From Oscillospiraceae bacterium Zagget12 (GTDB taxonomy: Bacteria > Bacillota > Clostridia > UBA1381), in the NCBI GenBank assembly GCA_001941225.1, contig MSHM01000023.1:1-64000 (forward strand): a DNA stretch of 64,000 nt. Direction: 5' to 3'. A program made the translations under genes and the position numbers. Below, piece by piece: positions 32,710 to 36,264 of the stretch (the first letter of the stretch is position 1; every line of letters starts with the position of its first letter). The notes beneath the pieces were generated by a model, which saw only the letters and a program-made list of their open reading frames with translations, was not told the origin of the DNA and searched no databases.

Positions 32710-33441
32710 ATGAAATTCGGAATAATTGCGTTTTTGTCAACGGTTGTGGGAGCGATTGTGGGCGTGGGCGGCGGACTGATAATACGTCCGATGCTCGGAT
32801 TTTTTGACGTGACAAAAGGACTCGCGTCGTTTTCGTCCGCGGCGTGCGTGTTTTGTATGGGAATTGTCAGCCTGATAACGACTGTGAAAAAAGGCGCGAA
32901 AATACAGCTTAGGGAAACCGTTGTGCTTGCGGCGGGAAGTATCTGCGGAGCGTTTGCCGGCGGCGCGTGTATACGGTTTGTAAGCGGCGAATTTATAAAA
33001 ATAGGGTACATATTCGCGATGGTATTCGTGCTTGCCTGTATGGCGGCAAGGAGCCGTTTGCCGAGAATAAAATTAAAAAATCCTCTGCTGCAATTCCTTA
33101 CGGGAACAGTAACGGGAGGATTATCGGGATTTTTCGGCATCGGCGGCGGACCGTTCCAGATGACGGCGCTGCTTTTGCTCTTTGATTTGCCGCCAAAGGA
33201 GGCGGCTGTTCAGAGTATATTTATAACTCTGCTCACCACCGCAAGCTCGCTTATTCAGTACGCCGTAAGCGGGTACTGGGATTTTTCGCTTGCGGTATAT
33301 ATGATACCTATGGCTGTGATAGGCGGATTTATCGGCGGACTTTTAAACAGAAAATTCAACAATAAATATGTTTCGATTTTGTTCAATGCGACGGTTTTGT
33401 TTATAATAATTATGCAAATATATTCGATTATTCACGGATAA
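32710..33441 (+). CDS. TauE/SafE family anion permease
   Basis: A 243-residue integral membrane protein with about eight hydrophobic segments and the internal duplication typical of the family, marked by GVGGGLIIRPML and GIGGGPFQMTALL. Family members carry sulfite, sulfoacetate or other small organic anions; the substrate is not shown. GGAGGGTG precedes ATG 32710. Its last 14 bases overlap the convergent ymdB gene. Confidence 0.85.
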   Translation: MKFGIIAFLSTVVGAIVGVGGGLIIRPMLGFFDVTKGLASFSSAACVFCMGIVSLITTVKKGAKIQLRETVVLAAGSICGAFAGGACIRFVSGEFIKIGYIFAMVFVLACMAARSRLPRIKLKNPLLQFLTGTVTGGLSGFFGIGGGPFQMTALLLLFDLPPKEAAVQSIFITLLTTASSLIQYAVSGYWDFSLAVYMIPMAVIGGFIGGLLNRKFNNKYVSILFNATVLFIIIMQIYSIIHG

Positions 33442-34207
33442 AAAGCCGTTCAATACCGGTGCATTTGCCGTTTTCGGGATTAATCTCGAAAATACAGCCG
33501 CAAAATTGTCCCTTTCCGCCCGCGACCTCGAATTTTTGAGGCATACCGGTGCGGAATCGGTTTATGATAGGCGTACATTCTCTGCCGAGTATTGAAATTT
33601 GCGGACCGGTCATTCCCAAATCGGTTATCGCGCCGGTGCCGTTTTCCATAATTACCTCGTCGGCGGTCTGTACGTGGGTGTGCGTGCCGAATACCGCGGA
33701 AACTCTGCCGTCGAGAAAATACGCCATCGCGAGCTTTTCGCTTGTCGCCTCCGCGTGGAAATCTACCAATATTATATCGGTGGATTTTTTTATTTTAGCT
33801 ATTTCGCGCTCGGCGGCGTCAAACGGTGAATCCGAAGGCTCAAGATACGTTCTTCCGATAAGGTTTATAATTCCGACCTTTTCGCCGTTTTTCGCGGTGA
33901 AAACGCTGCTGCCCTCGCCGGGACAGCCCTTGCTGTAATTCGCGGGGCGCAAAACATTGCCCTCGTTTTTCATAATGATTGCAACCTCCTTGCAGTCCCA
34001 GGTGTGGTTGCCCATTGTTACGGCGTCTATTCCGGCGCGCATAAGCTCGTCATAAGCGTTTCTCGCAAGTCCTCTGCCGTGAGTGGCGTTTTCGCCGTTG
34101 GCAATGACAAAATCTATATTTTTTTTATATTTCAACTCGTCGATATACTTGAAAAGCATATCGCGTCCCACACGGCTTACAACATCGCCGATACATAAAA
34201 TTTTCAT
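33428..34207 (-). CDS. ymdB: YmdB-type metallophosphoesterase
   Basis: A 259-residue calcineurin-like phosphodiesterase (TIGR00282 type): MKILCIGDVVSRVGRD, ANGENATHGRG, DAVTMGNHTWD, DFHAEATSEK and GTHTHVQTADE supply the metal ligands. In Bacillus, YmdB has 2',3'-cyclic nucleotide phosphodiesterase activity, affects biofilm and motility decisions, and is encoded directly after rny, the same order as here. GGAGAT precedes ATG 34207. Between rny and ymdB lies a structured, U-tailed RNA element, so most rny transcripts may end before ymdB. Confidence 0.92.
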   Translation of the reverse strand: MKILCIGDVVSRVGRDMLFKYIDELKYKKNIDFVIANGENATHGRGLARNAYDELMRAGIDAVTMGNHTWDCKEVAIIMKNEGNVLRPANYSKGCPGEGSSVFTAKNGEKVGIINLIGRTYLEPSDSPFDAAEREIAKIKKSTDIILVDFHAEATSEKLAMAYFLDGRVSAVFGTHTHVQTADEVIMENGTGAITDLGMTGPQISILGRECTPIINRFRTGMPQKFEVAGGKGQFCGCIFEINPENGKCTGIERLFIRE

Positions 34208-34292: not shown

Positions 34293-34403
34293 AAAAAAAA
34301 GGAGCATTACAGAACGGGTAGAAGCTAAACGGCAGACCGCTTATACAGTGCCTTTATCGCAAAGTATCAAAGCGGAATCCGTTTACGCCCTGTAACAGCT
34401 CCC
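34293..34403 (-). ncRNA. Structured U-tailed RNA element downstream of rny
   Basis: On the minus strand about 111 nt fold into one interrupted helix: GGAGC with GCTCC, TTACAG with CTGTAA, AAACGG with CCGTTT, CCGCTT with AAGCGG, ATAC with GTAT, and apical CTTT with AAAG. Eight T (34300-34293) follow. This is far larger than the simple terminators elsewhere in the window. It could be the rny terminator, a stable 3'-end-derived RNA, or a control element for ymdB. It does not look like SRP, 6S or 5S RNA. Confidence 0.55.
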
Positions 34404-34424: not shown

Positions 34425-36005
34425 TTATTTAGCGTAATCAATCGCTCTTGTTTCGCGTATCAGACTAACCTTAATCTGACCGGGATATTCAAGTTCGCTT
34501 TCTATGCGTTTAACAATGTTCTTTGCCACGAGAATCATACTTTCGTCCGAAACGGATTCCGGCTTAACCATAATTCTGATTTCGCGTCCCGCCTGTATGG
34601 CGAAGGATTTTTCAACGCCGTCAAAATCATTGGCGATTTCTTCAAGTCTTTGTAAACGCTTAATATAGGTTTCAAGATTTTCGCGTCTGGCTCCCGGACG
34701 CACCGCGGATATTGCATCGGCTGCTTGTACAAGCGAGGCAACAATGGTCTGTGCCTCCACATCGCCGTGGTGCGCCATAATGGCGTGTACAACATCTTTG
34801 TTTTCACGGTACTTCTTCGCGATGTCCGCGCCGATAGTAACGTGAGAGCCTTCGACTTCATGGTCAACCGCTTTGCCGATGTCGTGCAGCAGACCTGCGC
34901 GTTTCGCTTGCGAAACATCGACTCCCAGTTCACCTGCCATAACGCCCGCAAGGTGCGAAACCTCAACACTGTGCTTTAAGACGTTCTGACCGTAGCTTGT
35001 TCTGAATTTAAGTTTACCAAGCAGCTTGATAAGCTCCGGATGAAGTCCGTGTACGCCTGTTTCAAAGGTGGCGCTTTCGCCCTCCTGCTTGATAATAGCC
35101 TCAACCTCTTTGCGAGATTTTTCAACTGTTTCCTCAATGCGTGCCGGGTGGATACGTCCGTCCACGATGAGCTTTTCGAGCGCGAGCCGCGCGATTTCAC
35201 GTCTGATAGGATCAAAACCTGAAACGATAACAGCCTCCGGAGTATCGTCTATTATAAGGTCAACACCCGTGAGAGTTTCAAGAGTTCTGATATTCCTGCC
35301 TTCGCGTCCTATTATGCGGCCCTTCATTTCGTCGCTCGGAAGATTTACGACGGAAACAGTGGTTTCGGCAACGTGGTCGGCGGCAACCTTTTGGATTGAA
35401 AGAGCAACGATGTTCTTTGCTCTCTTTTCCGCGTTCTCCTTTGCCTCTTGCTCAATTTCTTTAACCATTATGGCTGCCTCATGCTTTGTCTGATTTTCAA
35501 TGTCCTTAAGCAGAATGGCTTTAGCCTCTTCTGTTGTAAGACCCGAAATCTTCTCTATAAGAGCCATTTGTTCTTTTTTTATTTCTGCTATTTCTTTTTC
35601 TTTAGAATCAAGAGCCTTTAATTTCTGATTGTAGGATTGCTCTTTTCTTTCTAAATTATCTGTCTTTTTGTCTAAATTTTCCTCTTTTTGATTAATTCTG
35701 CGTTCCTGGCGGTTAAGCTCGTTTCTGTGTTCCTTAATCTCTGCGTCCAAAGCGCTGCGCAGCTTTTGGTTCTCCTCCTTTGCCTCAAGAAGGAGCTCGC
35801 GTTTTTTGGCGCTTGCGCTTTTTTCCGCGTCGGAAATTATAGACTTAGCCTTTTCTTCAGCGCTGCCGAATTCAGCCTCGGCGATTTTCTTGCGGTGAGC
35901 GACGCCCATATTGAAACCGACAATAACGCCTGCCGCGCACAAAACAATCGCTATGGCTATTATAACAATCAATAATGTTGTATTAATAATTAGTAACACC
36001 CCCAT
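34425..36005 (-). CDS. rny: Ribonuclease Y
   Basis: A 526-residue membrane-anchored endoribonuclease that starts mRNA decay in Bacillota. The N-terminal membrane helix [19 protein letters not shown] is followed by a long charged coiled coil (about 30-200), a KH domain ([19 protein letters not shown]) and an HD domain with [12 protein letters not shown]. The ATG at 36005 was chosen because GGAG sits at the right distance and the length fits the family; the frame extends upstream but through structured leader sequence. The start codon and site lie in a hairpin (35999-36036). Confidence 0.95.
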
Positions 36006-36036
36006 AAAAGTATTTCTCCAAGACCTGCAATGGGGG
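35999..36036 (-). promoter_or_regulatory. Hairpin over the rny start codon
   Basis: On the minus strand CCCCCAT (36036-36030) is perfectly complementary to ATGGGGG (36005-35999), the start codon and next four bases of rny. The 24-nt loop holds the Shine-Dalgarno GGAG. Closing this 7-bp, mostly G-C helix would hinder initiation. Confidence 0.6.
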
Positions 36037-36040
36037 ACTT

Positions 36041-36152
36041 TCTTAAAATGACTGCTTCCTATAAAACACCGGCAAAACCGGAACCGCGCGGCGCGTGTGC
36101 AGGTAAAACGCCTATGGCGGCTTGTAATCATACAGAGCAGTCTGTTTTAAGA
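36041..36152 (-). ncRNA. Branched structured leader of rny
   Basis: TCTTAAAA and GACTGC (36041-36055) pair with GCAGTC and TTTTAAGA (36137-36152), giving 14 base pairs with a small internal loop. Inside are CCGG/CCGG and CGCC/GGCG hairpins and a GC-rich arm. It occupies the middle of a roughly 225-nt rny leader. No known riboswitch core is recognised. Confidence 0.5.
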
Positions 36153-36235
36153 CGGCTCCATTTTAAGTATTGGGATTACATATAGATATATTATTTACAG
36201 AAAACTTTATCCTTAAAGAATATTAAGCATTATAT

Positions 36236-36264
36236 ATTGTATACTATTTTTTTGATTGTGTCAA
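36236..36264 (-). promoter_or_regulatory. Sigma-A promoter of rny
   Basis: Minus-strand TTGACA (36264-36259), 17 bp, TACAAT (36241-36236). The start near 36229 leaves a leader of about 225 nt. The rest of 36265-36412 is A/T rich, with nothing else recognised. Confidence 0.8.

Follow-up and report, generated by a model that had tools for sequence, protein, structure and literature searches.

What is the role of the large structured RNA that lies behind the ribonuclease gene rny in Oscillospiraceae bacterium Zagget12? The window analysed here is a stretch of 64,000 nucleotides (nt) from this genome (contig MSHM01000023.1, positions 1 to 64,000). On its minus strand, rny (34425..36005), which encodes RNase Y with the Pfam domains RNase_Y_N, KH_1 and HD, is followed by an RNA element of 111 nt (34293..34403, read from 34403 to 34293) that starts about 20 nt past the rny stop codon, between rny and ymdB. 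The complementarity and co-variation described below make it highly likely that this element of the rny 3' untranslated region (3'UTR), besides its predicted role as the rny terminator, is a trans base-pairing module for the leader of an S-layer mRNA. In these uncultured Clostridia, the rny and S-layer mRNAs would then very probably stick together.

The minus strand of the element was folded and compared with shuffled sequences. It reached -46.0 kcal/mol, compared with -27.0 +/- 2.9 for the shuffles (z = -6.5, 0 of 200). The plus strand folds too (z = -4.7). Because the alignment of the element contains 131 G-U pairs and only 31 A-C cells, the minus strand is taken as the functional RNA. The predicted shape is a single long rod in which helical segments stack on one another, interrupted by small internal loops and capped by a 7-nt apical loop. 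Its basal helices are formed by the 5' strand GGGAGC U GUUACAGGGCG (34386..34403) and the 3' strand CGUUCUGUAAUGCUCC (34301..34316), as seen from the fold and from covariation in all 16 helix pairs. In the middle helix, the 5' strand UAAACGG (34379..34385) stacks directly on the basal helix, and all 6 modelled pairs of the middle helix covary. Opposite to this strand, the 3' side of the rod carries a near-invariant 9-nt bulge, GCUUCUACC (34317..34325), which is one-sided with zero unpaired bases facing it. The apical loop G(A/C)UAAAG, present as GAUAAAG in the window (34352..34358), is also near-invariant in the alignments and is closed by an invariant C-G pair. The rod ends like a terminator, with a GC-rich GGGAGC/GCUCC base and then a U8 tail (34300-34293) that is read directly from the sequence. 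In every relative in the alignment the stem is likewise followed by a U-run, and a terminator role is predicted for the element. An earlier reading of the window from its sequence only had described a discrete, U-tailed RNA of stacked helices with small loops just after the rny stop. This description agrees with our fold, to which the strand has been added. By eye and with a consensus scan only, a clear promoter for the element itself was not seen.

The element is conserved beyond its genome. With BLAST, it was present in 16 of 16 genomes of the genus, with weak matches in other genera. Two covariance models found the element in 42 genomes belonging to seven genera of the host family, each with a single strong match, and in every genome inspected the element was located directly downstream of rny. 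The element is a conserved RNA family that occurs as a single copy per genome behind rny in these seven genera. In an alignment of 40 sequences, 92.4% of the cells pair and 28 of 29 pairs have changed on both sides. The covariation score was 0.65, compared with 0.28 in shuffled and at most 0.13 in slid controls. The helices vary freely, whereas the apical C-G(A/C)UAAAG-G and the UUCUAC motif stay fixed. Relatives without the element have a plain terminator hairpin at the same place behind rny. A simple hairpin in relatives, which the sequence-only reading had named as speaking against its own interpretation, is what other genera of the family have, whereas the seven genera keep the full structure.

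Outside the host family f1, the covariance model gave no convincing match among 391 genomes of the class. On viral contigs the loop-bulge pattern was matched 61 times, which is about chance by an estimate for 17 fixed bases and a 31-wide gap. Paralogues of the element were not found in its own genome. The element is larger than a usual terminator, as the sequence-only reading had claimed, and the region has no match in Rfam 15 at the gathering score or at E <= 10.

The candidate partner was found through the bulge. The exact bulge complement GGGTAGAAGC occurs twice in the own genome, once in the element itself and once at G000:C20:49860-49869. In most genomes of the genus, the same 10-mer lies within the same conserved non-coding sequence. 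This site follows a conserved TTGACA..TAnnAT promoter and precedes, by about 230 nt, the gene for a protein of 980 amino acids with an N-terminal SLH domain. The 10-mer is placed in the loop of a hairpin predicted for the extreme 5' terminus of the transcript, beginning within a few nt of the transcription start. In 24 of 24 genomes inspected, the downstream open reading frames (ORFs) begin alike, with an SLH-type N-terminus that follows the pattern M(N)KNLKKVIS...FPDV...Y. With BLAST and a third model, the S-layer leader was found once per genome in all seven genera that have the element. It was also found in g7 and g16, in whose metagenome-assembled genomes (MAGs) rny was not detected. In the genera of f1 that have rny and no element, a strong leader match was absent. 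Four S-layer leader loci gave no Rfam match at the gathering score.

A second sigma-70-like promoter (TTGACT..TATAAT) is located between the rny-complementary hairpins and the SLH gene at L284:1614-1645 (g1), with equivalents in g4, g6, g11 and g16, and seems to be missing in g15, g10 and g13. Where it is present, a shorter S-layer mRNA without the rny contact could therefore be made.

The contact proposed for the element is the 10-nt sequence GCUUCUACCC (34316-34325, minus strand), which is the bulge plus one nt and is complementary to the S-layer leader loop GGGUAGAAGC. Bulge and leader loop are both predicted to be mostly unpaired, and the calculated duplex energy of their pairing is -16.9 kcal/mol. 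We compared the two sites at 10 core positions in the 38 genomes that hold both. Pairing was found at 375 of 380 core positions, 367 of them Watson-Crick. Position 1 was the most informative: bulge and leader have G/C in 30 genomes, A/U in 4 (G051, G062, G063, G065), U/G in 3 (G029, G046, G067) and G/U in 1 (G054). It is paired in 38 of 38 genomes, while shuffling of the partners gives 29.3 on average. Within g15 alone it is paired in 14 of 14, compared with a shuffled mean of 7.6 (p = 6e-5). In G053, UU replaces CC at the bulge end, and AA replaces GG in the leader. Parsimony on the rny tree counts 5 changes at position 1 in the bulge, 5 in the leader and 5 for the joint state, so bulge and leader have changed on the same branches. 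When independent evolution was simulated with at least 5 variant tips on each side, full pairing was observed in 0 of 44,622 cases, a figure that depends on assumed rates and serves as a guide only. For five genomes (G029, G046, G051, G054, G067), the bulge was already known when the model located the leader, and each of them has a paired position 1. The 3'UTR and the 5'UTR are hence linked by a conserved complementarity of unpaired sites and by compensatory changes, with A-U, U-G and G-U replacing G-C on five branches and UU/AA in G053.

The structure, the conservation, the complementarity and the co-variation of these two unlinked sites are observations. From them we infer that the two RNAs meet and pair in the cell. 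The bulge (G/A/U)CUUCUACC(C) would pair over about 10 nt with the leader-hairpin loop (U)GGGUAGAAG(C/U/G), and the target hairpin would lie at the extreme 5' end of the mRNA for the large SLH-domain, S-layer-type protein that is encoded elsewhere in the genome. By analogy with known systems, the pairing would most likely control, at the 5' end of the S-layer mRNA, how stable this mRNA is or how it is used. The rny RNA might take part while still attached to the whole mRNA, as its tail, or after release as an RNA of about 110 nt. For G068, with the bulge AUUUCUACCC, the pairing predicts the leader loop GGGUAGAAAU.

Several observations weigh against a pairing in trans. The S-layer leader was not found in G003, G044, G049 and G068, which are incomplete MAGs that bear the element. 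At 7 of the 10 core positions the sites are invariant and hence uninformative, and the covariation comes mostly from position 1, plus a single double change at positions 9-10. These latter positions alone are not significant (p = 0.67 within g15). Five cells are mismatched, for example in G024, G027 and G054, and the genomes used are uncultured drafts, judging by the names shown. Further, the apical loop GAUAAAG is near-invariant as well, and its complement was not enriched over reversed-pattern controls, so that no partner was found for it.

Two other partners were considered for the apical loop. The CUUUA of the rny leader is conserved, yet it also occurs in relatives without the element and is not specific. 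Pairing of the loop with the bulge within one molecule (GAUAAAG with CUU[C]UAC) is possible on paper with a bulged C, but shows no covariation.

The rny transcript has a second structured region at its 5' end. Its promoter (TTGACA at 36264, TACAAT at 36236) and a long conserved leader occupy 36006..36264 on the minus strand. The leader (36229-36006, with L248-L282 and L218-L242) is a conserved structured RNA and has no match at the Rfam gathering score. Structured RNA is thus present on either side of rny, as the sequence-only reading had stated. The pairings in the leader are CUUAAAAUG with CAUUUUAAG, GACUGC with GCAGUC, ACCUGCA with UGCAGGU, and CCCCCAU with AUGGGGG at the rny start codon. 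CCCCCAU (36036-36030), the complement of AUGGGGG (35999-36005), and UGCAGGU (36029-36023), which is close to the rny ribosome-binding site, are both kept by most members of the genus. In genera that lack the 3' element, the rny leader is of another kind, with a GGGAAUGUUGAAU x AUUCAGCAUCCCC-type pairing, but shares the 5' motif GCUUNAUAUUUCUUUAA.

The hairpin loop ACCUGC of the rny leader (36104-36099, predicted unpaired) is a candidate for a second contact with GCAGGU in loop 2 of the S-layer leader. In all genera tested, ACCUGC and the GCAGG(U) of the second S-layer leader hairpin are both predicted in hairpin loops and mostly unpaired. In many genomes ACCUGC could pair instead with UGCAGGU. 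G013, G014 and the majority of the g15 genomes examined lack this inner partner. G013 has also lost both ACCUGC and the S-layer GCAGGU, which are retained in G014 and several g15 genomes. No compensatory change was found between ACCUGC and GCAGGU. These results suggest a contact of the rny leader loop that is weaker than the bulge contact. Such a contact would point to a pairing of the whole mRNAs with a possible feedback on rny. We can only tentatively propose a two-point clasp, in which the S-layer leader loops match the 3' element over 10 nt and the ACCUGC loop at the 5' end, and we are slightly more inclined to doubt it than to accept it. If it exists, the S-layer mRNA could bridge both ends of the rny mRNA, and the synthesis of RNase Y, as the main enzyme of mRNA decay, and the decay of the presumably very abundant S-layer mRNA might regulate each other.

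The regulation could also run in the reverse direction, which we regard as possible but rather unlikely. The S-layer leader would then act on rny through the 3' element and the ACCUGC loop, taking the place of the UGCAGGU that the rny leader itself has near the ribosome-binding site, and the synthesis of RNase Y would track the load of S-layer message. The location of ACCUGC and GCAGG(U) in hairpin loops, the retention of ACCUGC where the inner UGCAGGU is missing, the joint loss in G013 and the complementarity of CCCCCAU to the rny start region are all consistent with this direction. However, the ACCUGC site shows no covariation beyond the joint loss, and several g1 genomes and G024 are complementary in GCAGG only (5 bp). 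Pairing inside the rny leader, such as AUCCUGC with GCAGGAU in G024 and G049, accounts for the motif in other genera. Another explanation does without RNA pairing and takes both sites as one double-stranded DNA operator bound by the same protein at the two loci. Complementary RNA sites are indeed the same DNA motif on opposite strands, identical as double-stranded DNA, and a drifting protein specificity could bring about the co-change at position 1. Yet all 4 of the non-Watson-Crick pairs at position 1 are G-U pairs (G/U in G054; U/G in G029, G046 and G067). Because a G-U pair preserves the RNA pairing but breaks the DNA identity, they argue against a shared DNA motif. In addition, both sites occupy loops of RNA structures that are conserved and fixed in orientation, one of them is at the terminator behind rny, and the excess of G-U over A-C in the element is strand-specific. 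An operator is improbable for these reasons.

We give equally little credence to the idea that the element serves chiefly to meter the read-through into ymdB, as an attenuator or aptamer, the role for which the sequence-only reading had left room. In the window, ymdB (33428..34207, minus strand, Pfam YmdB) is the next gene downstream, a strong terminator-like structure separates it from rny, and no obvious ymdB promoter is seen in the next approximately 85 nt. In g10 and in two g11 genomes (L030/L189, L190), however, the gene after the element is not ymdB but, for example, ruvX with its own promoter, and the element is still behind rny. The element thus travels with rny and not with ymdB, an obligatory position upstream of ymdB is not found, and metering of ymdB does not hold as a general role. 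Neither is an alternative antiterminator pairing evident. The outermost helix forms the terminator stem and shows covariation in this form, and relatives without the element have an ordinary terminator in its place. The terminator anatomy and the simple hairpins that other genera of the family use at this position would also fit a merely elaborate intrinsic terminator without any function in trans. This we find hardly credible, given the near-invariant bulge and loop amid fast-changing helices and the trans-covariation with an unlinked leader.

Pairing of the rny 3'UTR with the S-layer leader has its nearest precedent in Listeria monocytogenes. According to the account in the review PMC7821165, the hly 3'UTR pairs with the 5'UTR of the prsA2 mRNA and shields prsA2 from RNase J1 (Ignatov et al. 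2020). In both cases, as far as that account goes, the 3'UTR of one mRNA is complementary to the 5'UTR of another. The rny 3'UTR differs from the system as described there in that it belongs to a ribonuclease gene and is a conserved rod ending in a terminator. It would also use a one-sided bulge against a 5'-terminal hairpin loop, in a predicted contact that covaries across genera. Type II 3'UTR-derived small RNAs such as RsaC and s-SodF (PMC7821165) resemble the element as structured, terminator-ended 3' ends of mRNAs in which a conserved stretch stays unpaired and is complementary to the leader of a target. For the rny element a free RNA of about 110 nt is hypothetical, and the rny 5' leader may take part as well. 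In Bacillus subtilis, RNase Y cleaves its own mRNA in the 5'UTR and the early ORF and so exerts a post-transcriptional control on rny (PMC10303841). The long 5'UTR and a post-transcriptional control through the own mRNA are similar to what we propose, whereas a 3' element or a trans partner mRNA is not described in PMC10303841. A search of the literature brought up no paper on RNase Y together with S-layer and structured RNA, and none on kissing 3'UTR contacts between mRNAs.

Hairpins at the 5' end that stabilise mRNAs are known. The S-layer leader hairpin, predicted near the transcription start, is like them in its position, but differs in its nearly fixed loop that matches the rny 3'UTR. To our knowledge, RNA-RNA interactions in trans can almost never be predicted from sequence in uncultured bacteria. 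Two unlinked untranslated regions that co-vary across genera offer a base-pairing partner that is directly testable, and with this contact the hly-prsA2 precedent would gain a structured bulge-loop form that is deeply conserved. Three RNA elements, the S-layer leader, the rny leader and the rny 3' element, were not found in Rfam.

Some minor observations concern the region behind rny and the element itself. In L030:4811-6253 (g10; the same sequence as L189), rny and the element are followed by a DUF4160-like small ORF, a short ORF and a GIY-YIG-like protein in place of ymdB. These genes, named by eye, carry their own promoter. In L223 (G036), the usual terminator behind rny is replaced by a very long, perfect-looking hairpin of about 28 bp (TGATGGTGGCTGTTGCAAATGAGCA). 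The 5' strand of the element (window 34379-34402) is nearly identical, in 23 of 24 nt, to a Sua5/YrdC-type coding sequence at G000:C43:58179-58202 (L002:1501-1524). A comparably weak match was seen in G022, a genome without the element, and the near-match is probably due to chance.
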